A stretch of DNA of 64,000 nt from Dysidea avara (taxonomy: Eukaryota; Porifera; Demospongiae; Dictyoceratida; Dysideidae): positions 15,784,780 to 15,848,779 of the forward strand of contig NC_089280.1 in NCBI RefSeq assembly GCF_963678975.1, read 5' to 3'. Shown in pieces: positions 19,138-59,665 of the stretch. The position numbers were made by a program, and so were the translations under genes. The notes beneath the pieces were generated by a model. That model did not search any database. It was not told the DNA's origin and saw only the letters and a list, made by a program, of their open reading frames with translations. Numbering within the stretch: position 1 is the first letter of the stretch; each line of letters begins with the position of its first letter.

Positions 19138-19975
19138 TCAAGACACACGATAGTGTGTCGTGCGGCCCAAGAAGCCGGCGCGCCACACCGTGAGTATATT
19201 AACAGGAAGAAAGAAAACGCAATTTTCACACCTATGTAGCTCTGTGATCCCTTATCCGATTGGAACCAAATTTTCTAGAGACGTGCCGCCCAGTTAGGGG
19301 AGTCTACATACCAAATTTGAAGAAAATCGCTCCAGCCATTTCCGAGATACGAGCGAACAAAATTTCGTTTTAATTTCTTCGTTTTTTTCTTCTTCTACTT
19401 CTTCATTTTGCACACTTCGCAAAATCCGCTATAAAACACGAATGCGTGCTCGGATCGGGCTGAAATTTGGCACACTTAAAGGGCTCATTAAGGCGGATCT
19501 CTGTACCAACATTGGTAGGAATCCGATGAATATTCACGGAGTTATGACCAATTATTTGCGTAAAATAAGGTCGAAGGTCTGTCACGCCTACAGGGTAAAC
19601 CCCTTGGAGGAATCAGTTGAAAATTGATATGTAGATGGAGCAACCATCGTAGGAGTGCCTTTTTGTGGTTTGAAAGGAATCGGAATAAAGACCATGGAGA
19701 TATGACACAAAACCCAACCTGTGTCAAAATTACGCGATCGATTTTTATGAATAAAAAAACTATTAGTTTTCGTGTCTACCAGGCAAACCGCTTAGAGCAA
19801 CGAGCTGAAAATCAGTATGTAGCTGGAATAATCATCATGAAAAGTTCTTGCAGTAGTACAGAAGAATCGGATTACAAATCACTGAGTTATGATTCGAAAG
19901 GCAACTATGTGCAGCAAATGCGAGATCGAGATACTCTAATAGAACAGTCACCCTAATAAAGCATTCAGCTGCATG
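19138..19975 (+). repeat. head and core of copy 2
   Basis: Starts with the short stem GACACACGATAGTGTGTC, with one mismatched pair in this copy. It contains a short frame (19442-19627) encoding IGLKFGTLKGLIKADL and NPMNIHGVMTNYLRKIRSKV that is also open in the other copies. The core ends with CGAGATACTCTAATAGAACA just before the array. Confidence 0.75.
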
Positions 19976-22900
19976 TATAATTTACTCAGTTACAGTACAT
20001 TGCAAGTTATTCTGTAGGGAATTCAGCTACAAACAAGTCACCCTGTAGTCAGATCAGCTAGAAGAAGGTACCTAATACAGGCCCGTAGCCAGGGGGGGTT
20101 CGGGGGGTTCTGAAGAACCGCCCTCTTGGAAAAAAGGTCCACAATTTCAGTAAAAGGTCCACAATTTTAGCAAAAAGGTCCACAATTTTAGTATACAAGT
20201 CCAAATTTTCAGGAGCAAAAGTCCATTAGCTACAGTTTACTAGATACCACTATAATAAGAAGCTAAAATAAGTGCTCCGAGTAACTCATTCAGTGCTTGC
20301 ATTAAATGCAATGCAAGATCGAGATACTCTATAATAGAGCAGTCAACCACTCTAATAGAACAATCACTCTAATAGAACAGTCACAATTACATTTTCTTTT
20401 AAAAGCTACTTAATTTACATGTAGATTGTCTAAACCGAGCTTTCATTAAAAGATTTTGGTGGACAAGCCCCTCCATTCAGAGCCCACAAATAGCATCCAT
20501 GCTTCAACTCCATGCAATGTGTAAATTTCATTGTTTAAGACACCCTTTGTTCTGCTACACTGCCCCTGTTGATCATGGCAGAGTGCTCAATCTTTCCCAT
20601 TCTTATTCAATGTGATATTCCAATATATTATATTTAGACACATACATGTGCAGATGGTATAATTACAGTAGCAGTAGAGATATTTTTCCAGATATCATTC
20701 ATACAGCTGGTCTTCAGCTTACCTAAAAAAATTGTTATTTTTATTGACTGAAATGCCACTAAATTCAACCTTTTAGTATCTGTTTTCAAAAAATTTTCTG
20801 GGGGGGCATGCCCCCAGACCCCCCTAGATTGGGTGTGCTTCGCACACCCAGTCTCAGTACCTTTATTAATCATCATGCAAGTAAAGGTCCACTTTTGGTC
20901 AAAAAGAACCCCCCTTTCAAAATTCCTGGCTACGGGCCTGCCTAATAGAGAGTTCAGCTACAAAGAAGCCATCATGTAGAGAGTTCAGCTGAAATAAATC
21001 ACCCTGTAGAGAATTCAGCTACAAACAAATTGCCCTGTAGAGAGATCAGCTAGAAGAAGTTACCTTGTAGAGAGTTCAGTTACAAAGAAACAATCATGCA
21101 AAGAGTTTAGATGCAAACAAATCACCCAGTACTCAGAAAGTCCGCTATGAACAGATCACACTATAGAGAGTTCAGTTAGAAACAAGTCATCCTGTAGAGA
21201 GATCAGCTAGAAGAAGTCACATTGTAGAGAGTTCAGTTACAAAGAAACAATCATGCAAAGAGTTTAGCTGCAAACAAATCACCCAGTAAAAAGTTCCGCT
21301 ATGAACAGATCACACTGTAGAGAGTTCAGTTAGAAACAAGTCATCTTGTAGAGAGATCAGCTAGAAGAAGTTACCTTGTAGAGAGTTCAGTTACAAAGAA
21401 ACAATCATGCAAAGAGTTTAGCTGCAAACAAATCACCCAGTTAAAAGTTCCGCTATGAACAGATCACACTGTAGAGAGTTCAGTTAGAAACAAGTCATCC
21501 TGTAGATAGATCAGCTAGAAGAAGTCACTTTGTAGAGAGTTCAGCTACAAAGAAACCACCATGTAAGAGAGTTCAGTTGCAAACAAATCACCTGTAGAGA
21601 GTTCAGCTAGGAACAAGTCACCCTGTACAGAGATCAGCTAGAAACAAGTCATGCTGTAGAGAGTTCAGCTAGAAGAAGTTACATTGTAGAGAGTTCAGCT
21701 ACAAACAAGTCACCCTGTAGAGAGATCAGCTAGAAACAAGTCACCGGTAGAGAGTTCAGCTAGAAGAAGTTACATTGTAGAGAGTTCAGCTACAAAGAAA
21801 CTACCATGTAGAGAGTTCAGCAGCAAACAAATCGCCCTGTAGAGAATTCAGCTACAAACAAATCACCCTGTAGAAAGATCAGCTAGAAGAAGTTACCTTG
21901 TAGAGAGTTCAGCTAGAAACAAGTCACCCTGTAGAGAGTTCAGCTAGAAGAAGTTACATTGTAGAGAGTTCAGCTACAAGAAACTACCATGTAGAGAGTT
22001 CAGCAGCAAACAAATTGCCCTGTAGAGACAAACAAATCATCCTGTAGAAAGATCAGCTAGAAGAAGTTACCTTGTAGAGAGTTCAGCTACAAACAAATCA
22101 CCCTGTAGAGAGTTCAGCTAGAAACAAGTCACCCTGTAGAGAGATCAGCTAGAAGAAGTTACATTGTAGAGAGTTCAGCTACAAAGAAACTACCATGTAG
22201 AGAGTTCAGCTACAAACAAGTCACCCTGTAGAGAGTTCAGCTAGAAGAAATTACGTTGTAGAGAGTTCAGCTACAAAGAAACTACCATGTAGAGAGTTCA
22301 GCTGCAAACAAATTGCCCTGTAGACACAAACAAATCATCCTGTAGAAAGATCAGCTAGAAGAAGTTACCTTGTAGAGAGTTCAGCTACAAACAAATCACC
22401 CTGTAGAGGGTTCAACTACAAACAAGTCACTCTGTAGAGAGTTCAGCTAGAAGAAGTTACATTGTAGAGAGTTCAGCTACAAAGAAACTACCATGTAGAG
22501 AGTTCAGCTGCAAACAAATTGCCCTGTAGAAAATTCAGCTACAAACAAATCACCCTGTAGAAAGATCAGCTAGAAGAAGTTACCTTGTAGAGAATTCAGC
22601 TACAAACAAATCACCCTTTAGAGATTTCAGCTAGAAACAAGTTACACTGTAGAGAGATCAGCTAGAAACAAGTCACCCTGTAGAGAGTTCAGCTAGATGA
22701 AGTCACATTGTAGAGAGTTCAGCTACAAAGAAACTACCATGTAGAGAGTTCAGCTGCAAACAAATTGCCTTGTAGAGAATTCAGCTACAAACAAATCACC
22801 CTGTAGAAAGATCAGCTAGAAGAATTTACCTTGTAGAGAGTTCAGCTAGAAACAAATCACCCTGTAGAGAGTTCAGCTAGAAACAAGTCACCCTGTAGAG

Positions 22901-23175
22901 AGATCAGCTAGAAACATGCCACCCGTAGAGAGTTCAGCTAGAAGAAGTTACATTGTAGAGAGTTCAGCAGTTTAGCTGCAAACAAATCGCCCTGTAGAGA
23001 ATTCAGCTACAAACAAATCACCCTGTAGAAAGATCAGCTAGAAGAAGTTACCTTGTAGAGAGTTCAGCTACAAACAAACCACCCTGTAGAGAGTTCAACT
23101 ACAAACAAGTCATCCGGTAGAGAGATCAGCTAGAAGGGTCACCTTGCAGAGAGGTCAGCTACAAAGAAATCACCC
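19976..23175 (+). repeat. 31-bp minisatellite array of copy 2
   Basis: Roughly 75 tandem units, interrupted by the MITE at 20078-20940. Unit variants alternate (CAGCTACAAACAAATCACCC, CAGCTAGAAGAAGTTACC, CAGCTACAAAGAAACTACCA, CAGCTGCAAACAAATTGCCC). They recur in blocks of several units, so a higher-order repeat is present. Confidence 0.9.
20078..20940. mobile_element. 863-bp MITE inside the satellite array, TIR CAGGCCCGTAGCC
   Basis: Inverted ends CAGGCCCGTAGCCAGG and CCTGGCTACGGGCCTG, flanked by the direct repeat CCTAATA (20071-20077 and 20941-20947). The 7-bp duplication is close to the hAT size. The interior repeats AAAAGGTCCACAATTT and holds a GGGCATGCCCCCAGACCCCC block and a CTCTAATAGAACA block. 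Confidence 0.8.
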
Positions 23176-23609
23176 TGCTTCATCTTTTCTTCTTCCTGTA
23201 GTAAAGAAAAAATGACAGGTTAAAAAGCTCTAAAGCTGGCCATAGGCTGGCTTTGGGGTATACAAATACAAAAAGAAGTGAAATCTAATCCAAAACAGCC
23301 AAGCTGTAAAAAAAGAGTGCGGCCCTGAGAAAGGCTATGGTGAAAAAAGATGTGAAATCCAAGGTGGCGGCCAAGAAATGGCTGTGATGGTAGGTTAATG
23401 GTAAAAATTTTAATAACAACAATTCAGGTGAATTTGGTGCCGCTTGGTCTTGGCACAAAATTCACCTGAATTGTCGTTATTAAAATTTTTACCATTAACC
23501 TACCATCACAGCCATTTCTTGGCCGCCACCTTGGATTTCACATCTTTTTTCACCATAGCCTTTCTCAGGGCCGCACTCTTTTTTTACAGCTTGGCTGTTT
23601 TGGATTAGA
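23176..23609 (+). repeat. tail of copy 2 with long palindrome
   Basis: A short lead (CTTCATCTTTTCTTCTTCCT) and a small stem are followed by a near-perfect palindrome from 23283 to 23610, with arms of about 145 bp around a loop near 23446. The arms match those of copies 3 and 4. Confidence 0.85.
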
Positions 23610-24175
23610 TATAAGATGAGTCAATCAGATATACTATAACCATTATAAGAAATGACTATCACTAAACTGCTAGGAATACAAAACCATGCATGCGTGTAGC
23701 ACCAAACCCTTCAAGTTGCATCTCTTACATGTTCAACAGTTGCTTGGCTATAGCATGCATTGTGCACCATGATTGCAATATCATGCATCCATAACCATGC
23801 AGAGCAGCAAATGAGAGTATATCTTGATTAAATTGCACCTGTTTATATAGCATTTATCCAAATGCTGGTTATTTACCCTATACTTATTACGTCACATGCA
23901 GTGTGAAGCTTATGATAAGGTAAACATTATGATGTTGAAATTATACATGATAGGTCTGCTGCATACAGACTATATACCAATTTAAAAGTTTCATCAATTT
24001 GCAATTCTTACCAAAGATTAAAATCATGGATTACGTGTACAACATGAACAGGAAAATATGATGGTATATAGGATTTATTGATTTACGTAAATCTTGTTCT
24101 GATGTGCATGGGAGTATGATTACAGAGATGATGTCTCTAAAGTGCACGTGATTGTATATGCTATGTACCAGATAC
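23610..24175. other. 3' flank of the F-box gene
   Basis: AT-rich, unique-looking sequence between the tail of copy 2 and the F-box stop codon. It probably includes the F-box 3' UTR on the - strand. Nothing else was recognised. Confidence 0.5.
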
Positions 24176-26038: not shown

Positions 26039-26062
26039 GTCACCAATACAAGGGGGTATCAC

Positions 26063-26270
26063 TGTCGAGATGAACTAGCAACATTTATTATTAGTAGTAG
26101 TAATTATAGAAAACGTAATGTAAGTTATTTATAGATTGTAATCACGTGATTATGCCACGCTTGTACATGTGATCAATAAGAGTTGTAGTGTGATATTTGT
26201 ATCGTCTTCCTCCCGAATAATCCTACGCGTATCTAGCGAACCAGTGTTCTTATCGTGATATTCCCTCACA
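26063..26270 (+). repeat. BEL1 5' LTR
   Basis: 208 bp, TGTCGAGATG...CCCTCACA, about 93% similar by eye to 32247-32450. It is followed by TTTTTTGGTGCTGTGACC, the likely primer-binding region. Confidence 0.85.
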
Positions 26271-26310
26271 TTTTTTGGTGCTGTGACCAGTTCGCTACGC
26301 GTTCAACAGT

Positions 26311-27650
26311 TTGTTCATGGAGGAACTCAAGAAGCTTCGCGCCTCTCGTCGCGCACACCGATCACATCTTAAGAAGACTCTCACAAGCGTCACAGAAGTA
26401 CTAGAGAAGGACAGTAGTGAGCTACTAACAGACCTTCAAGCGATCACTTTGACCACCACGTTGGAAGGTTTACAACGCAGGAAAGAAATTTTGACGAACC
26501 TCGATAGAAAAACAGTGCTGATTGAACAAGAAGAATTAGAGACAGATATCTACGAGTGCGAAGAAATTCAAACCAATATCGTCGAAAAGATTGCTCAACT
26601 TCAGTTTCTACTTCGCTTTCAAACAACTCGTCCTTCAAAACCAATATCGCCTGCAGTTACAGATGTTCCGACAACCTCAATACCGCCAGTCATTCCTCGA
26701 CCTACAAACACTAGTTCACAGTCTGTCACTGAACAAGGAGACCTAACTCACATAGACGACACTCCACAACAGCCACCCACTGATTCAACAGCCATTACAC
26801 CCCCACAGAACCCAGTCTCTGGATACAATGTGAGTCGTCTACCTAAGCTTAACATTCCAATGTTTACCGGAGACCCCCTAATGTGACAACCATTTTGGGA
26901 CAGTTTTGAGGCGGCCATCAACTTAAACCCTGTATTAAGCAACGTACAGAAACTGAATTATCTCAGAGCTCAATTACAAGGGGATGCGGCCAGAGTGATA
27001 TCGGGTTTTCCTCTTACCAATAACAATTATTTACCATCAGTTGAACTGCTTCGTAGTCGATTTGCTCAACCTCACAAGTTGGTCATGCTCATATGCAGGC
27101 ACTCATCGACCTACCAAGCCCTAGTAACTCTCTCACTAGCCTGCAACAGTTTCACGATTCTATTGAGAGTCACACCAGAAGCCTTACTGCACTTGGAAAG
27201 AACAGTGACTCCTACAGCGATTTACTTGTGCCCATCACTCTTGGGAAACTGCCTACTGAGGTTAAGAGAAACCTAGCCAGAGAGTGGCGAAGTGAAGAAT
27301 GGACACTTGGTGAGCTACAAGGTGCACTACTTGTGGAAATTCGTATTCTAGAAACCACTACATCTACTTCCCACAAGCATCCTACTGCTTCATTCCTTGC
27401 TAACGCCCATAACACTAGTAACCCAGAGATCAAGAGGAAGTATCCATGTGTTTATTGTTCTGGTTCTCACCCTCCATCCAATTGTGTAGCCATTGCTGAC
27501 TCTAAGAAACGTTTGGAGATAGTCAAACAACGACTGTGCTTTAACTGCCTAGCTCATCACAAGAGCTCACAGTGCCAATCGAAGAACCGGTGCCGCAACT
27601 GCAAACGTAAGCACCACCTCCTACCACTGAGACTACTACACAGAATCCAG
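26311..27650 (+). pseudogene. BEL1 gag
   Basis: The frame from 26311 encodes a coiled-coil-like N-terminus, a Thr/Pro-rich linker and the conserved SRLPKLNIPMFTGDP. A TGA at 26884-26886 stops it where a tryptophan codon is expected. The frame continues (LNYLRAQLQGDAARVISGFP) and then shifts near 27085. The next frame carries three Cys/His knuckles: CVYCSGSHPPSNC, CFNCLAHHKSSQC and the start of CRNCKRKH (about 27450-27620). Gag forms the particle and binds RNA. This copy is broken by at least one stop and one frameshift. Confidence 0.8.
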
Positions 27651-27652
27651 CT

Positions 27653-30443
27653 TTGCCAAACACTGCAGTTACCACCATTTCCTCTACCTCACAAGAGACA
27701 ATTCTTCACTCTAACAACAGAAACGTATGTTTACTCAAAACTGCTGTTGCCACTGTTTCCAGTTCTAATTGTCATGCTGAAGCAAACGTTTTATTTGACG
27801 AAGGCTCACAACGATCTTTCATGTCACAGTCTCTGGCGAACACTTTACAGTTACAGCCACTCAAGAAAGAGATGATTTATCTATCAGCGTTTGCATTACA
27901 GATACCATCACCTCAACATTTGGAAGTAGCAAAGATCTATCTTGAAACTAAGACTGGCATCAAGCTACCATTATCTGTTCTGATCGTACCAACCATTGCT
28001 GCCCCTCTCCAGAACGCTGTTCAATCACAACTTACCCAGTTACCATACCTACAAGGGCTTACACTTGCCCACCCAGTTACCTCTGAGAAAGAATTTGAGC
28101 TGTCATTGCTTATTGGAGCAGATCATTACTGGGACATCATCGAAGATCACATCATCCGAGGAAATGGACCCACAGCCATGAAATCAAAATTAGGATATGT
28201 GCTTTCAGGGCCACTCCCACAATCTGTTGACACAACCACAAGTGCTCTCCACATTGCTGCTTTACAGACCAACGAATATGACTTGCAAAGGTTCTGGGCT
28301 ATTGAGGCATCTGGTACATCACCTTCCTGTAACACTGACAATGAACCCATACAGTCCTACATTGACTCTTGTATTTCGAGAAATGATGGGTCGTATACTG
28401 CAAGATTTCCGTGGAAGGAAAATCATCCTCCCTTACCAAGTAACAGATCTATATGTGAGAAAAGAACATGCTTCCTAGTCAACAAGTTAGTGCAAACTCC
28501 TAAACTGTTACATGTTTAAGACAGCATCCTAAACGAACAAGAACAACTAGGTTTTATTGAACAAGTACCAATACCAACGTTCACCAAGAATTGTCACTAC
28601 ATACCACATCATGCAGTCCGAAAGGACTCAACTACAATGCCAATAAGAATCGTTTACGACTGCAGCTGTCATGAATCCAAGGACTCACCAAGCTTAAATG
28701 ATTGTTTAGAGGTTGGCCTACCGTTTCTTACTGACATGTGTTCTGTTCTCCTTAGGTTCAGAGTAGGGCTGGGACGAATATTGAAATTTACCTTCGAATA
28801 TTCGCTTGTAAAATGTTCGAACATTCGAAGCTTCGGTGTTAGCTTTCAAGTTACAGGTTTTCTTGTACTTACTAACATCCTTCTTAAGTTTTATCTTTCT
28901 AGTCCTATTTAATAAGTTTGTAAGCATTTGGAAAGTGTATAGCAGCAGTACTGAATGACGCGATCGATCGATTGCAAGTGGGCGTGTCCGCTATACTGCA
29001 ATCATGCGTAGGTAAACACCAAATAATGGCTAAATCAATGTTTTCCTGCAATATCTATCACTTTATAAGGTGTTTCAAGGCTATAACAAGCTAAAATGCG
29101 TAGGTTTAAAAGTGGGCGTGGCACTCGCGAAGAGATGAACATCGATCGCGCAAGATAAATAATCAGCTGCAATAAAGACAACGACATTTATTTGTAATTC
29201 TTTCGTAAACAATGAGTGCATTACGAAGCTTCGAAGGATACTTTTAAAATTTGAAGTTTACTTAACCTTCGAACCATCGAAACATTCGAAGCTTCGTCCC
29301 AGCCCTAGTTCAGAGGTCACAGTTTTGGTATTTCAACAGACATAGAGAAGGCCTTCCTTCACGTCCAGCTCCATCCCCATGACAGGGACTTCACAAGATT
29401 CCTATGGTTGTCAGATGTAACCAACCCCAACTGTGAGTTCAAGGTGTACCGTTTCAAAGTAGTATTGTTTGGTGCAACCAGTTCACCATTTATGTTACAT
29501 GCTGTACTGTTTCACCACCTACAACAGTCACACACTCTTAACAGCAGCTAACATGCTAAGAAATCTGTATGTTAATAACATAATCACAGGATGTACTACA
29601 TCACAGCAAGCCACTCAGTTTTATCATGAATCTAGATCCATCATGTCTGAGGCAAGATTTAATCTTCGAGCTTGGGCATCCAGTTGTACCCAACTCAACA
29701 CTAGCACAACAGGAGAACGTGGCTGATAGCACTACCTTAGTCAATGTACTTGGCTTGCAGTGGGTCACTGTTACTGATAAACTTCACTTTATCCCAAAGA
29801 TGATCCTTCCTCAGAACCACACTACCGTTGTAATCACAAAGTGTCAGGTACTCCAACAATCATCAAGAGTGTTTGATCCCTTAGGTTACCTGGCTCCAGT
29901 CACAGTCCAGGATAAACTGTTCCTTAAGAAACTCTGGCAACACAAGATCAGTTGGGTGACCCACTGGAGAACAGCCTTAAGGATGAATGGCTTACCATAG
30001 CCCATGAAATTGAAGATGCCACCACTGTTTCCATGCTGAGACATTATTCTGCTACTAACAGTTCTGATACAAGTCTACAACTACATGTTTTTGCTGATGC
30101 CAGTTTGAAAGCTTATGGAACCGTGGCTTACCTCACAGCTGGAGACAAAGTAAACTTCATTATTGCCAAGTCCCGAATAGCACCAGTAAAGACTTTGACT
30201 TTACCAAGATTGGAGCTGATGGCTGCCGTACTTGCTAGCAGGGTAAGCAAGTTTATTGTTAACTCCTTGTCATTACAGGCCATACCACTACACCTTTGGT
30301 CAGTCAGATCGTCCTCTACTGGATTCAAAGTAATAAGAAGCTTCCCTCCTTTGTTTCTCACCGTGTCACTGAGATTAAGGATCTTACCAGCAATGCACCG
30401 TGGAGATATTGCCCAACTGATGACAATCCGGCTGACCTTCTGA
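27653..30443 (+). pseudogene. BEL1 protease, reverse transcriptase and RNase H region
   Basis: The protease motif VLFDEGSQRSF, with its catalytic Asp intact, is at about 27785-27815. A TAA at 28517-28519 interrupts the linker to RT. RT begins with MPIRIVYDCSCHES near 28640 and is split by a 544-bp MITE (28764-29307). Its catalytic box reads LYVNNI near 29567, where BEL elements have YVDD. An RNase H-like FADASLKAYGTVAYL lies near 30090. Further frameshifts occur near 29490-29630 and 29950. The RT is therefore inactive on several grounds. Confidence 0.8.
28764..29307. mobile_element. hAT-like MITE in the BEL1 RT, 8-bp target duplication
   Basis: Ends TAGGGCTGGGACGAA and TTCGTCCCAGCCCTA, flanked by exact GTTCAGAG repeats (28756-28763 and 29308-29315). 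Subterminal sequence is rich in TTCGAA. It interrupts the RT codons without other loss, so it arrived after BEL1. Confidence 0.9.
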
Positions 30444-30599
30444 CCAGGGACTGAGTTCACACGTACTGAAGTCGTCTACACTTTGGTCATCTGGCCCATC
30501 ATGGCTTACAAGAGACACCCTTTGGCCAACATGGCAGTCCTCACCAGATATTCAACTTCATGCTGCTGTAATCACTGCTGAAGAATTTACTCCATCTCA

Positions 30600-32090
30600 G
30601 CCTACTACTGAACCATTGGGACTACACTGTGTCATTGATCTGAAGAAGTTCAGCAGCCTTGGTAAGCTTGTTGTCACCACTGCTTATGTCCTCTGTTTCA
30701 TAGCAAACTGTAAACCTGGTGTAACCAAGCAAACAGGAACGCTGACACCACAAGAACTGTATCATGCCAAGATGAAATGGGTGAAGAGCTGTCAACTTCA
30801 AGTGTACGGAAAAGAGATCCAGTCTCATGTCCACCTCCCAAAGAAGCAAACAATTGACATTGCTGCGACAGTTACGTCTTTTCCTTGATGATGATGGTTT
30901 TATCCGATGTGGAGGGAGGATTCATAATGCACCGCTGAGTCAACTTACCAAGTTTCCGTACCTATTACCACCTAAACACCATCTTACCGCCCTCATCGTA
31001 TTCAATATACACGTCAAACTGTACCACACTGGTGTCAATAGCACGTTACTGCTATAAGACAAGAGTATTGGATTCCCACAGCAAGACAATATGTTAAGAG
31101 CTTACTGCGCTGCTGTACCATATGTAAGAGACATCAAGGAAAGCCATACATGGCACCAGATCCAGCACCTCTTCCACAATCTAGAACACAAGATTTACCC
31201 CCATTTACAGTATCTGGAGTAGACTTCACTGGGGCACTCTATGTCCAACAAGACAGAGATGAGGTGAAAGTTTATATCTGTTTATTTACGTGTGCCACAA
31301 CCAGAGCTATACATCTGGAAGTAGTCACCGATCTGTCAACTGAAACATTTTTACTTGCCTTTCGCAGATTTACCAGTCGCAAGGGTTTACCTCAAATTGT
31401 TATTTCCGACAATGCATCCACTTATGTCGGCTGCGGAGGAATTAACTGAGCTGTTCAATTCAATAGATCTAGCAAACACTGAGTAAACAAGGAATAACCT
31501 GGGAATTCATACCAAAGAGGGCCCCCTGGTATGGGGGGTTCTGGGAGAGGTTGATCGGGCTAACGAAGAGCTGCCTTAAGAAAGTCTTGGGAAGAGCACA
31601 TATTAATCTCCTAACCCTACAAACTCTAGTGGTAGAAATTGAAGCCATTCTAAATGACCGACCGCTCACCTATGTCTCAAGTGATGTCCTGGACCCAGAT
31701 CCGTTAACACCAGCTGATTTGCTTTATGGAAGACGTATCACCTCTCTACCCTACAGACATGTTGAGGAAGATGAACTGACAGATCCTACTATTGGAGATG
31801 AAGCACAGATCCGGAAGAGAGCTAAGAAACAGGCACTGATCATAGAACATTTTTGTTCCAGATGGAAGCATGAATATCTGACATCGTTAAGAGAATCCTA
31901 TAAGACTTCAGGCAACAACCAACAGAAGGCCAAGACAGGTGACATTGTGCTAATACATGATGATAAACCCCGTGTGGACTGGAGATTAGCTGGCATTGAA
32001 GAGTTGATACCTGGTGGTGATGGATTGATTCTTGCGGCAAACATACGCACCTCAACCGGTAAAACAAACAGACCGATCAACCTGAAGTGA
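30600..32090 (+). pseudogene. BEL1 integrase and C-terminal region
   Basis: An HH-CC zinc-binding region spans about 30980-31140 (HHLTALIVFN, then LLRCCTICKRHQGKPY). The catalytic core follows: GVDFTGALYV (Asp), VISDNASTYVG (Asp) and GFWERLIGLTKS (Glu) around 31210-31560, with a frameshift near 31440. The 31551-32090 frame (ILNDRPLTYVSSD, LTPADLLYGR, VDWRLAGIEELIPGGDGLI) matches the DUF5641-type tail of BEL/Pao polyproteins. Domain order is normal, but the frames are broken. Confidence 0.8.
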
Positions 32091-32246
32091 CCAATGCAGA
32101 ATCTGATGATCCTACTTGAAGCAGCAAGAGATGTACTACCGACTCCTCCACTTTACCTGATAGTCGTCCTCAGATAGATGCAGCCAGAAGGGGAAGAATG
32201 CGAGTTTCAGAGTGGACCAAAATTCTACGGCCCCCTCCCCGGAGGA

Positions 32247-32450
32247 TGTCGAGATGAACTAGTAACCTTTATTATTAGTAGTAGTAATTATAGAATACGT
32301 AATGTAAGTTATTTATAGATTGTAATCACGTGATTATGCCACGCTTGTACATGTGATCAATAAAAGTTGTAGTATGATATTTGTATCGTCTTCCCAGTAA
32401 TCCTACGAGTATCGAACGAACCAGTGTTCTTATCGTGACATTCCCCCACA
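32247..32450 (+). repeat. BEL1 3' LTR
   Basis: 204 bp, TGTCGAGATG...CCCCCACA. It is preceded by a purine/pyrimidine-rich CCCCCTCCCCGGAGGA stretch, where a polypurine-type priming site is expected. Confidence 0.85.
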
Positions 32451-32452
32451 GT

Positions 32453-37606: not shown

Positions 37607-37629
37607 GTGACACCCCTTGCAATAGAGTA

Positions 37630-40761: not shown

Positions 40762-41640
40762 TCAAGACACACGGTAGTGTGTCGTGCGGCCCAAGAAGCC
40801 GGCGCGCAACCCCGTGAGTATATTGACAGGAAGAAAGAGAACGCAATTTTCGCACCTCCGTAGCTCTGTGCTGCCTTGATGAAACAAGACAAAGTTTGCT
40901 GTGTAGATTCTCTCCACCTTCAGTACTCCACATTCCAAATTTGAGCGAAATCGCTTCAGGCATTCCTGAGATATTCGACTTCAAAAGTTGGCTTAGTTTC
41001 TTCGTTTTTTTCTTCTTATTTTTCTTCCTCTTTTCGCACACTTACAAAAACTGCTATAAAACGCGAACGCGTTATCCGATTGCCTTGAAATTTGGCACAC
41101 AGAAGGGGGGTATAAAGGCGCATCTCAGTACCAACTTTGGCTGGAATACCATAAACAGGCAAAGAGTTATGAGCGATTATGCACGAAAAATAACACCAAT
41201 ATGTTGTCACGCCTACAGGGTAAACCGCGTATGGGAAGAAGCTGAAAATCGGTGGGTGAATAGGTTAACTATTGAACCTCAAACCTTTTGTGGTTTGAAA
41301 GAAATCGAGCTAAAAACCAGGAAGATACAGCGAAAAAATCAACAGTGTGTAACAATTACGCAATCGAGATTAGCTAATTTTTAATTTTTGAATTTTATTA
41401 TTATTATTATTATTATTATGCTTGCCACGCCTACCAGATAAACCACTTGGGGTAATGCTTTGAAAATCGCTGTACAGATGGAGTTATCATCTTAGAAAGG
41501 CTCTTCAATGGTGTAGAAGAATCAGCCTTAAAGCCACGGAGTTATTATAACACGAAATCTTGGTGTAGCAAGTGCAAGATCGAGATACTCTAATAGAGCA
41601 GTCATCCTAATAGAGCAGTCACCCTGAACAGAATTCAAGA
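40762..41640 (+). repeat. head and core of copy 3
   Basis: Contains the longest version of the shared frame (40896-41384, 162 codons), with IALKFGTQKGGIKAHLST and VMSDYARKITPICCHAYRVN. An ATT/TTA microsatellite sits at 41396-41419. Confidence 0.7.
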
Positions 41641-44600
41641 GATCAGTTAGAAATAAGTAACCTGTATAGAGATCAGCTACAAACAAATCACCCTGTAGAG
41701 AGTTCAGCTACAAACAATTCACCCTGTTCAGACATCAGTTAGAAGAAATTTTCTTGTAGAGAGTTCAGTTACAAACAAATCACCCTGTTGAAAGATCAGC
41801 TAGAAGATGTCACCTTGTAGATAGTTCAGTTACAAAGAAACCACCATGTAGAGAATTCAGCTACAAACTAGTGACCCTGTAGATACATCAGCTAGAAGAA
41901 GTTACCTTGTAGAGAGTTCAGCTACAAAGAAACCATTCTGTAAAGAGCTCAGCTGCAAACAAATCACCTATACAGAATTCAGCTACAAACAAATCACCCT
42001 GTAGAGAGATCAGCTAGAAGAAGTTACCTTGTAGATAGTTCAGCTACAAACAAATCATCCTGTAGAGAGATCAGCTAGAAGAAGTTACCTTGTAGATAGT
42101 TCAGCTACAAACAATTCACCCTGTACAGAGCTCAGTTAAAAGAGGTTTCCTTGTAGAAAGTTCAGCTACAAACAAATCACCCTGTAGAGAGATAAGTAAG
42201 AAGAAGTTACCTTGTAGATCGTTCAGCTACAAACAATTCACCCTGTAAAGAGATCAGCTAGAAGAAGTTACCTTGTAGAGAGTTCAGCTACAAAGAAACC
42301 ATCATGTAGAGAATTCAGCTGCAAACAAATCATGTATAGAGAGTTCACCTACAAACAAATCTCCCTGTAGAGAGATCAGCTAGAAGAAGTTTCCTTGTAG
42401 AGAGTTCTGCTACAAACAAATCACCCTGTAGAAAGATCAGCTAGAAGAAATCACCTTGTAGAGAGTTCAGCTTCAAAGAAACAATCATGTGAGAGTTCAG
42501 GTACAAACAAATTTTCCTGTAGAGAGATCAGCTAGAAGAAGTTACCTTGTAGAGAGTTCAGCTACAAAGAAACCATCATGTAGATAGTTCAGGTATAAAC
42601 AAATCACCCTGTAGAAAGATCAGCTACAGAAGAAATCACCTTGTAGAGAGTTCAGCTACAAAGAAACCATCATGTAGAGAGTTCAGCTACAAACAAATCG
42701 GCCTGTAGAGAGATCAGCTAGAAGAAATTACCTTGTAGAGAGTTCAGCTACAAAGAAACCATCATGTAGAGAGTTCAGCTGCAAACAAATCACCTGTAGA
42801 GAGTTAAGCTACAAACAAATCTCCCTGTAGAGAGATCAGCTAGAAGAAGTCACCTTGCAGGGAGTTCAGTTACAAAGAAATAAACCATGTAGAGAGTTCA
42901 GCTGCAAACAAATCACCTGTAGAGAGTTCAGCTAGAAACAAGTCACCCTGTAGAGAGATCAGCTAGAAACAAGTCACCTTGTAGAGAGTTCAGCTAGAAG
43001 AAGTCACATTGTAGAGCTACAAAGAAACTACCATGTAGAGTTCAGCTGCAAACAAATCACCCTGTAGAGAACTCAGCTACAAACAAATCGCCCTGTAGAA
43101 AGATTAGCTAGAAGAAGTTACCTTATAGGGAGTTCAGCTATGAACAGATCACCCTGTAGAGAGTTCAGCTACAAACAAATCACCCTGTAGAGAGTTAAGT
43201 TACAAAGAAACCACCATGTAGAGAGTTCAGCTGCAAAAAAAATTAATCACTGTGTAGAAAGTTCAGCTAGAAGAAGTCACCTTGTAGAGAGTTAAGCTGC
43301 AAATAAATCACCCTGTAGAGAATTCAGCTACAAACAAATCACCCTGTAGAAAGATCAGCTAGAAGAAGTTACCTTGTAGAGAGTTCAGCTACAAAGAAAC
43401 CACCATGTAGAGAGTTCAGCTGCAAACAAATCACCTGTAGAGAGTTCAGCTAGAAACAAGTCACCCTTAGAGAGATCAGCTAAAAACAAGTCACCCTGTA
43501 GAGAGTTCAGCTAGAAGAAGTCACATTGTAGAGAGTTCAGCTACAAAGAAACTACCACGTAGAGAGTTCAGCTGCAAACAAATCATCCTGTAGAGAGTTC
43601 AGCTAGAAGAAGTCACCTTTTAGAGAGTTCAGCTACAAAGCAACCACCATGTAAAGAGTTCAGCTGCAAAAAACTCAATCACCTTGTAGAAAGATCGGCT
43701 AGAAGAAGTTACCTTGTAGAGAGTTCAGCTACAAAGAAACCACCATGTAGAGAGTTCAGCTGCAAACAAATCACCTGTAGAGAGTTCAGTTAGAAACAAG
43801 TCACCCTGTAGAGAGTTCAGCTAGAAGAAGTCACATTGTAGAGAGTTCAGCTACAATGAAACTCCCATGTAGAGAGTTCAGCTGCAAACAAATCACCCTG
43901 TAGAGAACTCAGCTACAAACAAATATGCAGTGTAAAAAGATCAGCTAGAAGAAGTTACCTTGTAGAGAGTTCAGCTACAACGAAACCACCATGTAGAGAG
44001 TTCAGCTACAAACAAATCACCTGTAGAGAGTTCAGCTAGAAACAAGTCACCCTGTAGAGAGATCAGCTAGAAACAAGTCACCTTGTAGAGAGTTCAGCTA
44101 GAAGAAGTCACATTGTAGAGAGTTCAGCTACAAAGAAACTACCATTTAGAGAGTTCAGCTGCAAACAAATCACCCAGTAGAAAGTTCAGCTATGAACAGA
44201 TCACCCTGTTGAGAGTTCAGTTAGAAACAAGGAATCCTGTAGAGAGATCACCTAGAAGTATCGCCTTGTAGAGAGTTCAGCTACAAACAAATCACCTGTA
44301 GAGAGTTCAGCTACAAACAAATCACCCTGTAGAGAGTTCAGCTACAAAGAAACCATTCTGTAAAGAGCTCAGCTGCAAACAAATCACTTGTACAGAATTC
44401 AGCTACAAACAAATCACCCTGTAGAGAGATCAGCAAGAAGAAATTACCTTGTAGATAGTTCAGTTACAAACAAATCACCCTGTAGAAAGATCAGTTAGAA
44501 GAGGTTACCTTGAAGAAAGTTCAGCTACAAAGAAACCATTTTGTAAAGAGCTCAGCTGCAAACAAATCACCTGTACAGAATTCAACTACAAACAAATCTC

Positions 44601-44990
44601 CCTGTAGAGAGATCAGCTAGAAGAAATTACCTTGTAGAGAGTTCAGCTACAAAGAAACCACCATGTAGAGAGTTCAGCTGCAAAGAAATCACCCTGTAGA
44701 AAATTCTGCCAGAAACAAATTGCCCTGTAGAAAGATCAGTTAGAAGAAGTTACCTTTTAGAGAGTTCAGCTACAAAGAAACCATTCTGTAAAGAGCTCAG
44801 CTGCAAACAAATCACCTATACAAAATTCAGCTACAAACACATCACCCTGTAGAGAGATCAGCTAGAAGAAGTTACCTTGTAGATCGTTCAGCTACAAACA
44901 ATTCACCCTGTAGAGAGAGCAATTAGAAGAAGTCACCTTGTAGAGTGTTCAGTTACAAAGAAACCACCATGGAGATTTCTGTAATCAATA
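41640..44990 (+). repeat. 31-bp minisatellite array of copy 3
   Basis: Roughly 105 units with the same alternating variants as copy 2. They are tandem without spacers, so this is not a CRISPR array. Confidence 0.9.
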
Positions 44991-45699
44991 TATGTGACCG
45001 GATTTGCGAAAAGGGGTCTTCCACACACATCCAATTCCGTAAACGTTGGAGACCATAACTCAGTGTTCAAGTAACATATTAACCTGAAAATTTCACCATG
45101 TATTCAGTTATAGTGGTGCTCACCACTGCCCAAATATCAAGGCAATAGCTCTTTCCAATCTGAAGTTATCAATTGTCAAAGTTGGCAAATTGGATGTGTG
45201 TGGAAGACCCCTTTTCGCAAATGCGGTCAAATATGTATTATACAGTATATATAATTTGTACATTTACTGATAAAATATTTAAAGTACATCTACTTCATCT
45301 TTTCTTCTTCCTGTAGTAAAGAAAAAAACGTAGGTTAAAAAAGTCCCAAAGCTGGTATACAAATACAAAAAGAAATGAAATCTAATCCAAAACAGCCAAG
45401 CTGTAAAAAAAGTGTGCGGCCCTCAGAAAGGCTATGGTGAAAAAAGATGTGAAATCCAAGGTGGCGGCCAAGAAATGGCTGTGATGGTAGGTTAATGGTA
45501 AAAATTTTAATAATGACAATTTAGGTAAATTTTGTGAAGCGGCACAAAAATTCACCTGAATTGTCTTTATTAAAATTTTTACCATTAACCTACCATCACA
45601 GCCATTTCTTGGCCGCCACCTTGGATTTCACATCTTTTTTCACCATAGCCTTTCTGAGGGCCGCACACTTTTTTTACAGCTTGGCTGTTTTGGATTAGA
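44991..45699 (+). repeat. tail of copy 3
   Basis: An extra inverted pair lies at about 44996-45230 (GACCGGATTTGCGAAAAGGG with its near-inverse CCCTTTTCGCAAATGCGGTC). It is followed by the standard tail, with a palindrome from 45380 to 45700. The extra foldback is absent from copies 2 and 4 and is probably a separate MITE. Confidence 0.75.
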
Positions 45700-46393
45700 T
45701 ATATATATATATATAAATATAATATATATATTATACTATCTATGATAATGTACGGTAATTCTGAATGATTGAGCTGATACAGCAATCTTGCAACATGTGG
45801 TTAATCTTGCGTGTGCACTCACTCTGTACTCATGCAATGTTAGTAACTGTACATTCCCAGAAAAAGCAAAACACTTCAACTGTAGATAATAACATCCCAT
45901 AAGAAGTAAAATATGAGTAGTGACACTCATGTGCCATCATCAATTCATGACCTCAAATAAAAATTAAATCTCAATACTTGAGTAGAGATACCGAGTATTT
46001 TAATGTGCTAACTACTACATTGTACCTTATTAGAATAACACAATGTGTGTCCTTACTAGCTAGCTAAGTATTGCTACTTCTTGTAGATGTGATGAGCAGT
46101 GCTGATCACTCTTTGTGTGTGCATTCATGTTATAACACATTGTTCAACTTCTGAAGGGTGATAGCAAATGCAAAGTCCTTACGTACCATGAAGCAGAAAT
46201 TGATTCTAGATACTCTAGCAGAAAAACTTGAAGCTTAAGTTTTCAAAGTTTGTAACTGATTCCAAAAGACAATGTATAATAGATAAAAAATTGTAAAAAC
46301 AAAAAATCAACAAATTTTTTCTAACGGTATACATACGACATACCGACATAGTTTATCCACATTACAATGACCTCTTATTGATGTGTACTGTAG
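45700..46393. other. spacer with AT microsatellite
   Basis: An AT repeat at 45700-45735, then unique AT-rich sequence upstream of the first + strand TRAPPC10-like exon. No further exon was recognised. Confidence 0.5.
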
Positions 46394-53781: not shown

Positions 53782-53823
53782 CAGTGTTGGGGAAGTTACT
53801 TTTTAAAAGTAACTAGTTACATA
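53782..53823 (-). mobile_element. left piece of a split hAT-like MITE
   Basis: CAGTGTTGGGGAAGTTACTT and the following GTAACTAGTTACATA match the end of the MITE at 13391-13915 (inverted). The rest of the MITE resumes at 59666 after copy 4. Confidence 0.85.
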
Positions 53824-54404
53824 TCAAGACACACGGTAGTGTGTCGTGCGGCCCAAGAAGCCGGCGCGCCACACCGTGAGTATATTTACAGGAAGAAAGT
53901 AAACGCGATTTTCACACCTTTGTAGCTCCGTGATTCCTTATCCGATTGAAACCAAAGTTGCTACAGAAGTGCCGGCTAGGTAGGGGAGTCCACATTCCAA
54001 ATTGGAAGAAAATCGCTCCATCCATTTCTGAGATACGATCGGCCAAAGTTTGGGTTTTTTTCCTTCGTTTTTTTCATTTCGCACACTTTGCAAAATCCGC
54101 CATAAAACACGAATTCGTGCTCCAATTGGACTGAAATTTGGCACACTTAAAGGGCTCATTAAGGCGAATCTCAGTACCAAGTTTGGTAGGAATCCGATAA
54201 ACGTTTACCGAGTTATGACCGATTATTTGCGTAAAATAAGGTCGAAGGTCTGTCACGCCCACAGGGTAAACCGCTTGAAGGAATGAGCTGAAAATTGCTA
54301 TGTAGATGGAGTAACTATCGTAGGAGTGCCTTTTTGTGGTTTGAAAGGAATCCAGTTAAAGGCCATCGAGATATGACACAAAACCCAACCTGTGTCACAA
54401 TTAC

Positions 54405-55096
54405 GGGTACTGATGAAAGCCGGAATGGAACGGAACGGGATCGATCGGGGCGCGCGCCAAGTTAAAAATCGTTTAAAACAGATTGTGCGCTATTTCCAAC
54501 TGTCACACAATAACTATAATTATGCTAGAATTAGTTTGTTTCTGTTTATAGGCATGCTAGTAATCGTTCGCTCAAAAGTTCTATTAAATGCCCACCACAT
54601 GGTAAGGTGTGTGTAAATAAAATCCATCCAGTTTAGTTTAATCCTGTTGTAGAAGTACTTCCTTACCATTCCAAGAGGTAAACTACTGTAGTATTTTCAT
54701 GTTGTAGCGGTATTCAAACCTTTTTGTACATGTTTCGCTGGTTTTCTGAAGCGACTATAATTCTACCATTATTGGCAGTGATTTACGAGAGTTCGCAAAC
54801 TGCAGTATGTTATATTACCAGTGCTTACAAAAAAATAGGTTAACAACTTAGCTAGATGATCGTTGTTCAGCTTAGACGATTACACAACGCATTCTTGCAG
54901 TGGGCATTAAATAGAGTTGTCGAGCAAATGTTTTCTAGCATGTTTATAGCAGAAGCGAACTAATTCTAGCACAATTCTAGTTATTGTGTGAAAGTTGGAA
55001 ACAGTACACAATCTGTTTAAAACGATTTTTTTTACTTGGCGCACGCCCCTATTGATTCCATTCCGTTCCGTTCCATTCCGGCTTTCATCAGTACCC
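54405..55096. mobile_element. Mutator-like MITE, 692 bp, 9-bp target duplication
   Basis: Ends GGGTACTGATGAAAGCCGG and its inverse are the tips of ~195-bp inverted repeats (54405-54598 and 54900-55096). They are flanked by exact CACAATTAC repeats (54396-54404 and 55097-55105). Copy 1 retains the unoccupied site CACAATTACGCG. Long TIRs and a 9-bp duplication fit the Mutator superfamily. Confidence 0.85.
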
Positions 55097-55285
55097 CACA
55101 ATTACGCGATCGATTTTTATGAATAAAAAACTATTAGTTTTCACGCCTACTAGGCAAACCGTTTAGAGCAGTGAGCTGAAAATCAGTGTGTAGCTGGAAT
55201 AATCATCATAGAAAGTCCTTGCAGTAGTACAGAAGAATCGGATTACAAACCACTGAGTTATGATTCCAAAGCCAACTACGTGTAA

Positions 55286-55512
55286 CCAAGAGTAAATAAT
55301 GGAAGAGAGAGTATCCAACTGCCATATACTGCATCAAAAATGAGCACGTCAAGTAGAGAAGCCATCCTGTAGTGCTATCAAAGTAAGTGTTGAATGAAGT
55401 AATAAACACCCTCTAGCTCAGACTGTTTGACTTCAAATCATGCCTGGGCACTTCAAACAGTCTGAGCTAGAAGGTGCAGTTGGATACTCTCTCTTCCATT
55501 ATTTACTCTTGG
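55286..55512. mobile_element. 227-bp MITE, 5-bp target duplication TGTAA
   Basis: Ends CCAAGAGTAAATAATGGAAG and its inverse (about 37 bp), flanked by TGTAA (55281-55285 and 55513-55517). A second inverted pair (CTAGCTCAGACTGTTTGA and its near-inverse) sits inside. The unoccupied site is seen in copy 1. Confidence 0.8.
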
Positions 55513-55579
55513 TGTAACATATGCGAGATCGAGATACTCTAATAGAACAGTCACCCTAATAGAGCATTCAGCTAATTTA

Positions 55580-58500
55580 TTTAATCCATTATAGAATTCT
55601 ATTACATTGCAAGTTATTCTGTAGGGAGTTCAGCTGCAAACAGTTAATCTTATAGACAGTTCAGCAAGAAGCAAGTCACCCTATAGAGAGTTCAGCTACA
55701 GATATATCGCTGTAGTGATTCAGAACATTACAAGTCACACTGAAGAGAGTTCAGCTATAAACAAGTCATGCACCCTGTGGAGAGTTTGGCTACACTCTCT
55801 AGAGAATTCAGCTACAAACAAGTCACTGTGGAGAGAGTTCAGCTACAAAGAAACTACCCTGTAGAGAGTTCATCTATACAAACAAGTTAACCTATAGAGA
55901 CCAGCTGCAAACAAGTAACCCTGTAGAGATTTCAGCTACAGACAAGTCACTTTATAGTTTATACAATGTTCAGCTACAAGTAAATCACTCTGTAGAGAAT
56001 TTAGCTACATACAAGTCACTCTGTAGAGAATTTTGCTACAAACAAGTCACAGTGTAGAGAGTTCAGCAACCAAAAAACCACCTGTAAAGAGTTCAGCTAA
56101 ACAAACAAGTTACTCTGTAGAGAGAACAGCTAGAAACAAGAGAGAACTCAGTTAGAAGAAGTTGCCCTGTAGAGATCTCAGCTGCAAAGAAACCCTGTAG
56201 AGAGATCAACTACAAACAAATCACTCTGCAGAGTGTTCAGCTATAAACAAATCACCCTGTAGAAAGTTCAGGTACATACAAATCACCCTATATAGAGTTC
56301 AGCTACAAAAAACATCACTCTGTAGAGAGTTCAGCTACAAAGAAACCATCCTGTAGAGAGTTCAGCTACAAACAAGTTACCCTACAGTGAAATCAGTTTG
56401 AAACAAGAGATTTCAGCTACAAACAAATCAACCTGTAGAGAGTTCAGCTATGAACAGATCACCCTGTAGAGAGTTAAGCTATACAAGTCACCCTGTAGAG
56501 AGATCAGCTAGAAGAAGTCACTGTCTGCAGAGATCAGCTAGAAGCAAGTCACCTTGTAGAGAGTTCAGTGACAAAGAAACAATCCTGTAGACAGTTCAGC
56601 TACAAACCAATCACCCTGTAGAGAGTTCAGCTACAAATAAATCAACCTGTAGAGAGATCAGCTAGAAACTAGACACAATATAGGGAATTCGGTTACAAGC
56701 AAATCACCCTGTAAAGAGATCAGCTACAAACAAATCACCTTGCAGTGAGTTCAGCTACAAACAAATTACCCTGTAGAGAGATCAGCTACAAACAAAACAC
56801 CGTGTAGAGACTTCAGCTACAAACAAATCAACCTGTAGAGATTTCAGTTACAAACAAATCACCGACTGTAGAGAGATCAGCTACAACCTAAATCACCCTG
56901 TAGAGAGATCAGCTACAAACAAATCACCCTGTAGAGGGTTCAGCTACAAACAAATCACCCACTGTAGAGAGATCAGCTACAACCAAATCACCCCGTAGAG
57001 AGATCAGCTACAACCAAATCACCCTGTAGAGAGATCAGCTACAAACAAATCACCCTCTAGAGAGATCAGCTACAAACAAATCACCCTGTAGAGAGTTCAG
57101 CTACAAACAATTCAGCCTCTGGAGAGTTCAGCTACAACCAAATCACCCTGTAGAGAGTTCAGCTACAAACAAATCACCTTGTAGAGAGTTAAGCTACAAA
57201 CACATCACCCTGTAGAGAGATCAGCTACAAACAAGACACCGTGTAGAGACTTCAGTTACAAACAAATCAACCTGTAGAGATTTCAGTTACAAACAAACCA
57301 CCCACTGTAGAGAGATCAGCTACAACCAAATTACCCTGTAGAGAGTTCAGCTACAAACAATCACCCTGTAGAGAGATCAGCTACAAACAAATCACCCTGT
57401 AGAGAGTTCAGTTACAAACACATCACCCTGTAGAGAGATCAGCTACAAACAAATCACCTTGCAGTGAGTTCAGCTACAAACAAATTACCCTGTAGAGAGA
57501 TCAGCTACAAACAAAAAACACCGTGTAGAGACCTCAGTTACAAACAAATCAACCTGTAGAGATTTCAGTTACAAACAAATCACCCACTGTAGAGAGATCA
57601 GCTACAACCAAATCACCCTGTAGAGAGTTCAGTTACAAACAAATCACCTTGCAGTGAGTTCAGCTACAAACAAATTACCCTGTAGAGAGATCAGCTACAA
57701 CCAAATCACCCTGTAGAGTGATCAGCTACAAACAATCACCCTGTAGAGAGATCAGTTACAAACAAATCACCCACTGTAGAGAGATCAGCTACAACCAAAT
57801 CACCCTGTAGAGAGATCAGCTACAAACAATCATCCTGTAGAGAGATCAGCTAGAAACACATCACCCTGTAGAGAGTTCAGCTACAAACAAATCACCTTGT
57901 AGAGAGTTAAGCTACAAACAAATTACCCTGTAGAGAAATCAGCTACAAACAAATCACCTTGTAGACAGTTCACTTACAAACAAATCTACCCGTAGAGATA
58001 TCAGATCACCCTGTAGAGAGTTCAGCTACAAACAAATCACCCTGTAGAAAGTTCAGGTATAAAAAAATCACCCTATAGATAGTTTTGATACAAACAAATC
58101 ACCCTGTAGAGTGTTCAGCAAGATAACAGTCAGCCTGCAGAGACATCAGGTTACCCTATAGAGAGGTCAGCCAGAAGAAGTCACCTTGTAGAGAGTTCAG
58201 CAACAAAGAACCCACTCTGTATAGAGTTCAACTAGAAACTAGTTACCCTATACAGAGATCAGCTATATGTAGAAACAAGTCATCCTGTAGAGAATTCAGC
58301 TACAAACACATCACCCTGTAGAGATTTCAGCTACAAACAGATCATCATCCTGTAGATAGTTCAACTATAGATACAAGTCACCCTGTAGTAGAAGTCACCT
58401 TGTAGAGAGATCAGCTAGAAACAAGTCACCTTGTAGAGACCAGCTACAAAGAAACCATCCTGTAGAGAGTTCAGCTACAAACAAATCACCCAGAGAATTC

Positions 58501-59165
58501 AGCTATGAACAGATCACCCTGTAGAGAGTTCAGCTATACAAATCACCCTGTAGAGAGATCAGCTAGAAGCAAGTCACCTTGTAGAGAGTTCAGCTACAAA
58601 GAAACCATCCTGTAGAGAGTTCAGCTACAAACAAATCATCTTGCATAGAGTTCAGCTGCAAATAAATTACCCTGTAGAGAGTTCAGCTACAAACAAATCA
58701 CCCTGTAGAGTGTTCAGCTAGATAAAAGTCACCCTACAGAGAGATCAGGTCACCCTATAGAGAGATCAGCTAGAAGAAGTGATCTTGTAGAGAGTTCAGC
58801 TACAAAGAACCCACTTTGTAGAGAGTTCAGCTAGAAATAAGTTACCCTATAGAGAGATCAGCTAGAAACAAGTCACCCTGTAGAGATTTCAGTTACAAAC
58901 AGATCATCCTGTAGATAGTTCAGCTAGATACAAGTCACCTTGTAGAGAAATCAGGTAGAGGAAGTCATCTTGTAGAGAGCCAGCTAGAAACAAGTCACCT
59001 TGTAGAGAGTTCAGTGATAAAGAAACTATCCTGTAGAGTTCTTCTACAAACAAATCACCTTGTAGAGAGTGCAGCTACAAACAAATCAACCTGTAGAGAG
59101 TTTAGCTACATTTCAAGTCCCTTAGTAGAAAGATCAGCTGCGAACAAGTTATCCAGTAGGGAATA
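55580..59165 (+). repeat. 31-bp minisatellite array of copy 4
   Basis: About 115 units. It contains a repeated higher-order block with markers TTGCAGTGAG, ACACCGTGTAGAGA and CACCCACTGTAG at about 56730-56900, 57230-57330, 57440-57600 and part at 57640-57720. The same block is in copy 1 at 4160-4330. Confidence 0.9.
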
Positions 59166-59665
59166 ATAGACATGTAATAAATATATTTATATAATTACTG
59201 ATAAAATCAAAAACAGTTGAAGTATTAAAAATCTGCTCTGTCTTTTTATTCTGCCTGTGGTAAAGAAATAGGATAGGTTAAAAAAGCCCCAAAGCCAGCC
59301 TATGGCCAGCTTTGGGGTATACAAATACAAAAAGAAGTGATATCTAATCAAAAACAGCCAAGCTGTAAAAAAAGGTGCGGCCCCTAAAAAGGCCAAGGTG
59401 AAAAAAGATGTGAAATCCAAGGTGGCGGCCAAGAAATGGCTGTGATGGTAGGTTAATGGTAAAATTTTAATAACAACAATTCAGGTGAATTTGGTGCCAC
59501 TTGGTCTTGGCACAAAATTCACCTGAATTGTCGTTATTTAAATTTTTACCATTAACCTACCATCACAGCCATTTCTTGGCCGCCACCTTGGATTTCACAT
59601 CTTTTTTCACCTTGGCCTTTTTAGGGGCCACACCTTTTTTCACAGCTTGGCTGTTTTTGATTAGA
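59166..59665 (+). repeat. tail of copy 4 with long palindrome
   Basis: A small stem (CCCCAAAGCCAGCC with its inverse, 59286-59318) precedes a palindrome from 59342 to 59666, with arms of about 140 bp around a loop near 59495. Confidence 0.85.
59356..59445 (+). pseudogene. histone-H1-like Lys/Ala-rich peptide in the left arm of the tail
   Basis: One frame of the left arm reads SQAVKKGAAP and continues through KKAKVKKDVKSKVAAKKWL to a TGA. This Lys/Ala/Pro composition is typical of linker-histone C-terminal tails. The right arm (59563-59652, - strand) encodes the same peptide with a single Ala-to-Val change. In copies 2 and 3 the frame is shifted near the GCGGCCCT stretch. A captured 3' end of an H1-type gene is a plausible origin. 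The alternative is chance Lys-rich composition. Confidence 0.4.

Follow-up and report, generated by a model that had tools for sequence, protein, structure and literature searches.

Element copies and organization

The window analysed here is a 64,000-nt stretch of the Dysidea avara genome (NCBI RefSeq assembly GCF_963678975.1, contig NC_089280.1, positions 15,784,780 to 15,848,779 of the forward strand), and it was found by self-BLAST to hold four copies of a Helitron-like element and three palindromic tails; all results given below rest on these four copies in this one 64-kb window. Copies 2 (19138..23609, + strand), 3 (40762..45699, + strand) and 4 (53824..59665, + strand) are complete. In each the order is a head and core, an array of 31-bp units, a pre-tail and a palindrome at the element's end, with head and core together spanning ~0.9 kb when the nested insertions present in these copies are excluded. 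This order, with a palindromic tail of ~320 bp, had been called in the original prediction and was confirmed by self-BLAST and a tandem-repeat search. Copy 1 (4070..5509, - strand, running from 5509 down to ~4070) shares the head and core as predicted, and its description was refined: a short array is followed by array units of the opposite orientation, and there is no palindromic tail. With the two nested insertions of copy 4 removed, 872 of the 900 bases compared between copies 1 and 4 are identical, and the core of copy 3 is the most diverged.

The copies have exact termini in common. All four start with TCAAGACACAC directly after an A, and all three tail-bearing copies end in TTAGA directly before a T (for copy 2, A at 19137 and T at 23610), in agreement with the predicted TC start and TTAGA end. 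A sensitive search of the window with the head, core, pre-tail and tail pieces of copy 2 produced no additional head or tail, and the only matches outside the copies were two short ones, 21 bases to the tail at 2695 and 31 bases to the core at 47319. Under a rule of 23 matches in 31, the array of copy 1 comprises 3 units in element orientation (- strand) and then 12 units in the opposite orientation (+ strand), which meet at an exact inverted joint, TTCAGCTA/TAGCTGAA (here and below a slash marks a joint); strand-switching or inversion has therefore occurred in this element family. Degenerate internal repeats were observed in the core (19238-20064), one part matching another core part in copies 1 and 4 at ~70% over 137 bp.

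Terminal structures

The 5' end consists of TCAA, a hairpin with a 7-bp stem (GACACAC-GRTA-GTGTGTC) and then the 9-bp sequence GTGCGGCCC. In copy 2 the hairpin has the loop GATA and occupies 19142..19159 (+ strand), directly followed by GTGCGGCCC at 19160..19168 (+ strand). The same stem with the loop GGTA is found in copy 1 (5488-5505, - strand), copy 3 (40766-40783) and copy 4 (53828-53845), with GTGCGGCCC at 5479-5487 (- strand), from 40784 and from 53846, respectively. The 3' end, read inwards on the other strand, consists of TCTAATC, a 5-bp hairpin (ACAGC-CAA-GCTGT), an A-rich spacer and again GTGCGGCCC. On the element strand this small hairpin (ACAGC-TTG-GCTGT) lies at 23586..23598 (+ strand) in copy 2, 45676-45688 in copy 3 and 59642-59654 in copy 4, and its 13 nt sit exactly 11 nt inside the 3' end in each of the three tailed copies. 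The 3' subterminal repeat GGGCCGCAC is at 23568..23576 (+ strand), 45658-45666 and, with one mismatch, 59625-59633, and has inverted twins in the left tail arms at 23317, 45414 and 59375.

Nine exact occurrences of GTGCGGCCC were counted in 64 kb, where 0.09 were expected, and all of them are in element ends: the four heads and five of the six tail arms, the sixth (copy 4, right arm) being one base off. DNA folding of the first 70 nt gave z values of -2.82, -1.97, -2.82 and -2.82 for copies 2, 3, 4 and 1, and the best head fold of copy 3 contains the 7-bp hairpin. Hairpins at both ends and the lack of a visible target duplication are also what an IS200/IS605-like single-strand element, or an element moved by some other kind of recombinase, would present, since the consulted portion of a published account gives IS200/605-type elements terminal hairpins with neither terminal inverted repeats (TIRs) nor target site duplications (PMC3627910). 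The TC start, the A/T flanks and the 11-nt hairpin offset match Helitrons more exactly, and no enzyme of the IS200/IS605 kind was seen within the window; such an origin is considered unlikely.

The palindromic tail

With the flanking T included, the tails span 321-328 bp, end at the element's end, and are 95.7% (copy 2, 23283..23610, + strand), 96.3% (copy 3, 45380..45700, + strand) and 93.9% (copy 4, 59342..59666, + strand) identical to their own reverse complements. The view taken at the outset that such a palindrome is very large for a Helitron is borne out by these lengths when set against the small hairpins described. The copy 2 tail folds at -196.2 kcal/mol, compared with -37.5 +/- 3.7 kcal/mol for 100 shuffles, so the palindrome is not a product of chance.

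Of the outermost 120 columns in the arm alignment, 7 vary among the copies yet match between both arms of each copy, and 2 are one-sided, both in the right arm of copy 4. An overlap of this kind has a probability of ~6e-10 if the arms of copies 2 and 4 had changed independently. Between copies 2 and 3, 2 of these outer columns differ, and both differences are symmetric. Towards the centre the arms are no longer symmetric, in a manner that copies 2 and 4 share save for single bases. The outer arms are thus held alike, which is compatible with gene conversion, with selection acting on the stem and with copying in the course of transposition. One specific form of the last, in which the tail would be re-made at each move by a cut at the foot of the stem, folding back of the 3' end and copying of one arm from the other, is a doubtful proposal; it would amount to a eukaryotic rolling-circle transposon with a rolling-hairpin step as in parvovirus terminal resolution, and with the arms matched by replication and not by selection or ordinary gene conversion. 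The tail contains the putative 3' terminator twice, once inverted, and fold-back copying is a plausible origin for this arrangement.

Long near-perfect palindromes are a known type of assembly artefact, and the tails might on that ground be suspected to be read fold-backs. The palindrome boundaries are identical in three copies and fall at the element end, the copies have their own symmetric differences, and the central asymmetry is common to copies 2 and 4; an artefact is accordingly regarded as highly improbable.

A captured gene in the tail was considered and rejected: one frame in the copy 4 arm would encode a lysine-rich peptide, which had no PDB or Pfam match up to an E-value of 10, and the reading is altered in copies 2 and 3. 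A small inverted repeat (CCAAAGC...GCTTTGG in copy 4) lies just upstream of the tail in copies 2 (23200-23282) and 4 (59250-59340), and is collapsed in copy 3.

Conservation among copies

Copies 2 and 3 agree at 92 of the first 100 bp, compared with 562 of 818 (~69%) over the remaining head and core and 378 of 398 over pre-tail and tail; the first 100 bp differ from the rest at a Fisher probability of 1.4e-7, calculated on nearly equal counts from a separate alignment. The corresponding figures for copies 2 and 4 are 95/100, 711/811 and 382/414. Conservation of the ends and tail beyond that of the core is as expected of ends recognised in trans.

Core and tail differ in which copies they place closest. 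At core sites where a single copy differs, copy 3 is the odd one at 194 and copy 4 at 36, as against 11 and 20 in pre-tail and tail (Fisher 2.8e-8 versus the core ratio), or 11 and 15 when the five symmetric arm changes are counted once (Fisher 6.8e-6). This disagreement, from three copies with no outgroup, indicates that the tail has another history, through subfamily exchange, or a lineage-specific constraint.

Target site and empty site

A paralogous empty site of copy 4 was located at 13499..13915 (- strand), where the two flanks of copy 4, 53782-53823 and 59666-60018, directly adjoin each other. When the segment from TC to TTAGA is excised, the resulting join of copy 4 matches the empty site with no mismatch at the joint and with one 7-base gap in an ATATTAC repeat. 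The ends of copy 2, inspected by eye, have no direct repeat beyond AT, and the flanks of copy 3 are too A/T-rich for a duplication to be judged. Every scorable end is flanked as AT (4/4 left, 3/3 right). A 6-bp TTACAT duplication at copy 4 was also tried as a candidate: the letters are found on both sides of the element, but they are absent at copy 2, and the empty site lacks a single TTACAT. The target of copy 4 (53782-60018; also 13499-13915) is an interspersed repeat beginning CAGTGTTGGG, which we take to be hAT-like.

The islands of 31-bp units could conceivably be dispersed satellite DNA whose shared flanks were moved by recombination with no transposon involved, as the arrays make up much of the element length and the inverted joint of copy 1 lies inside an array. 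The exact common termini in different flanks, the ends conserved beyond the arrays and the empty site all speak against it, and we consider this quite improbable.

The AT at the scorable ends makes it formally possible to read the copies as a cut-and-paste element, CAAGACAC...GGATTAG, that a DDE-type enzyme mobilises and that duplicates a 2-bp AT target; this reading predicts the same empty site. The tips, on the other hand, carry no terminal inverted repeat: the head starts TCAAGACAC and the inverted tail TCTAATC. When the first 60 bases are compared with the last 60, copies 2 and 3 share no inverted stretch longer than the subterminal 9-mer, and copy 4 none longer than a 5-mer. We also know of no DDE family with AT duplications, and hold a cut-and-paste origin to be improbable.

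Coding content and search for relatives

Stop-to-stop frames of at least 150 aa number 18 in the window, and only one lies inside an element copy, a 185-aa frame in copy 3 with no Pfam match above cut-off. No copy can encode a full Rep/helicase, which has 1,496 aa in Helraiser according to the part of its description that was consulted, and the element family is non-autonomous. A Pfam scan of 8 of the 18 frames and one stop-masked 958-aa stretch returned F-box-like, RVT_1, DUF1758 and DUF1759 matches and, below curated cut-offs, DUF2208 and a second RVT_1.

Exact-pattern scans for relatives in viral and genome contig collections returned 0 loci, and blastn of the copy 2 head and core against plasmids, and of pre-tail and tail against phages, returned no match; these collections represent other kinds of organism, and the absence says little.

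Classification and proposed mechanism

These copies are probably non-autonomous elements of the Helitron superfamily, of the rolling-circle type moved by an HUH enzyme, that carry a second, inverted copy of their 3' terminator. The best reading of their ends is a mixture of Helitron1 traits (TC start in 4/4 copies, A/T target) with Helitron2-like ones (5' hairpin, subterminal inverted repeats). Of the two groups, the 3' CTRR of Helitron1 is replaced by TTAGA in 3/3 tails (TTAG if the A is assigned to the flank), and the TT or T-rich target of Helentrons by A/T in the three two-ended copies; the elements are for this reason placed in the Helitron superfamily without a named group. The Helitron/Helentron-like assignment that had been proposed is thus upheld in part: the TC start, A/T flanks, 11-nt hairpin offset, subterminal repeat, empty site and lack of a long frame agree with it, and the lack of a CTRR end and of the T|T target of Helentrons does not.

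Besides the missing CTRR, several observations weigh against this assignment. The 3' hairpin is 13 nt, compared with 16-20 nt in canonical Helitrons, and lies inside a far larger palindrome, and the best head fold of copies 1, 2 and 4 is a longer hairpin with which the 7-bp hairpin is incompatible. The sharing of a 9-mer between head and tail, where the 5' repeat is at positions 23-31, is only moderately beyond chance: shuffled heads aligned to the tail end equally well in 23, 49 and 350 of 1000 trials for copies 2, 3 and 4, and the nine GTGCGGCCC sites belong to one family, so the sharing counts as one event. No Helitron Rep/helicase family was found among the frames covered by the Pfam scan. 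At the empty site of copy 4 the plain A/T join has a score of 55.0, which is exceeded by 13 of 169 offset combinations; the top one, at 58.5, has the same A/TC left joint and retains TTAGA at the right joint. The ranking was the same when more of the empty site was included (plain join 177.0, best 180.5). TTAGA is common to the three tails and was for this reason taken as part of the element, with the higher score read as gap filling. The right joint is pinned down less precisely than the left (A/TC) joint, and this result slightly lowers confidence in the Helitron reading. Lastly, with A and T flanks and an element ending in A, insertion between A and T and a 2-bp AT duplication give identical sequences. 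The absence of a target duplication, as first claimed, agrees with the empty site at its left joint, but the right joint is looser and an AT duplication would look the same.

On the Helitron reading, a Rep/helicase supplied by a partner element would recognise the 5' end through TC, the 7-bp hairpin and GTGCGGCCC, nick at A/TC and peel off one strand through the core and array. It would pause at the 3' terminator (GGGCCGCAC, the small hairpin, 11 nt and TTAGA) and cut there, and the strand would then be inserted between the A and T of a new AT site with no duplication. Inverted duplication of the terminator would have given rise to the ~325-bp tail, whose single strand could form one long stem, at the foot of which the cut site would lie. 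The array of 31-bp units would travel with the element as cargo and would in addition expand in situ.

Comparison with known systems

Published accounts of the known families were consulted in part, and the comparisons that follow hold for those parts. Helraiser, of the Helitron1 type, has a 5'-TC, a CTAG-3' end and a 19-bp palindrome 11 nt from the 3' end, deletion of which raises truncation and read-through. The present elements are like it in the 5' TC, in a putative insertion between A and T that leaves no duplication and in the position of a hairpin ~11 nt from the 3' end, and like the non-autonomous Helitron Mothra in carrying blocks of tandem repeats. They differ from Helitron1 in TTAGA in place of CTRR, the 13-nt hairpin, a 5' hairpin, subterminal inverted repeats and the ~325-bp inverted-duplicated terminator tail.

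In Helitron2 each end has a hairpin and the terminal inverted repeats are asymmetric, with the 3' repeat just upstream of the 3' hairpin (PMC3627910); HINEs have repeats in their centre and TT as their target. The present elements partly resemble the Helitron2, Helentron and HINE group (DINE-1, oyster Cg_HINE): they, too, have a hairpin at each end, a subterminal inverted repeat whose 3' copy lies upstream of the 3' hairpin, and tandem repeats in the centre. They differ from this group in flanks that are A|T and not T|T and in arrays of 2.2-3.5 kb. Their 5' repeat starts 22 nt in, compared with 0-4 nt in Helitron2, and 33 nt separate their 3' repeat from the 3' end, compared with 20-30 nt in Helitron2 and 38-60 nt in mite HINEs. 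The 3' palindromes of mite HINEs are 5-10 bp, against a tail of ~325 bp here, and the microsatellite block of HINEs was not seen in these copies, which have only a short (TTA)n run in copy 3. A Helitron with a 300-bp palindrome was not recognised in literature searches of titles and abstract beginnings, with Repbase not covered, which is no proof of absence.

A further analogy may be made with the rolling-hairpin termini of parvoviruses, which likewise combine a long terminal palindrome with arms that stay matched. The present elements differ in that no Rep or virus genes were seen, the palindrome is at one end only and the central asymmetry has the same orientation in copies 2 and 4.

End structure is a main criterion by which Helitrons are detected, and a family of mixed traits with a 325-bp inverted terminator could escape searches for end motifs. 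The inverted duplication of the terminator would offer a natural test of the role of the 3' hairpin, and the matched arms pose a testable question of gene conversion, selection or copying during transposition.

Satellite arrays

The 31-bp arrays located by tandem-repeat search occupy 20946-23177 (2.2 kb, + strand) in copy 2, 41661-44975 (3.3 kb, + strand) in copy 3, ~55619-59149 (3.5 kb, + strand, from several overlapping search rows) in copy 4 and 4070-4480 in copy 1. Segmentation yielded 295 units, from which 270 of 27-35 bases were compared and 25 of other lengths excluded. Mean unit identity was 0.78-0.80 within and 0.78-0.79 between copies 2, 3 and 4, and the nearest relative of a unit was in the same copy in 58% of cases, versus 31% in 500 label shuffles (highest 39%). 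The arrays draw on a common pool of variants, to which growth inside each copy is added. The suggestion that the family spreads satellites of at least 3 kb is a fair one from the three long arrays, with the addition that arrays also amplify copy-specifically. The family would be a further means by which kilobases of short-unit satellite DNA are dispersed.

Nested insertions and neighbouring elements

Nested TIR insertions are present in each of the complete copies. Copy 4 holds two: one at ~54404-55096 with TIRs of ~198 bp and a 9-bp duplication, CACAATTAC, presumably Mutator-like, and a small element at 55280-55512 with 38-bp inverted ends and a GTGTAAC duplication; copy 1 holds the empty site for both. 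In copy 2 an insertion at ~20076-20936 has 16-bp inverted ends, CAGGCCCGTAGCCAGG, and a CCTAATA duplication, and in copy 3 a small element with 47-bp inverted ends lies between array and tail at ~44990-45234. Outside the copies, a retroelement at 26063-32450, which we assume to be BEL/Pao-like, has ends of ~208 bp that are 92% identical and a DUF1758 match, and a related fragment with DUF1759 lies at ~60224-63875.

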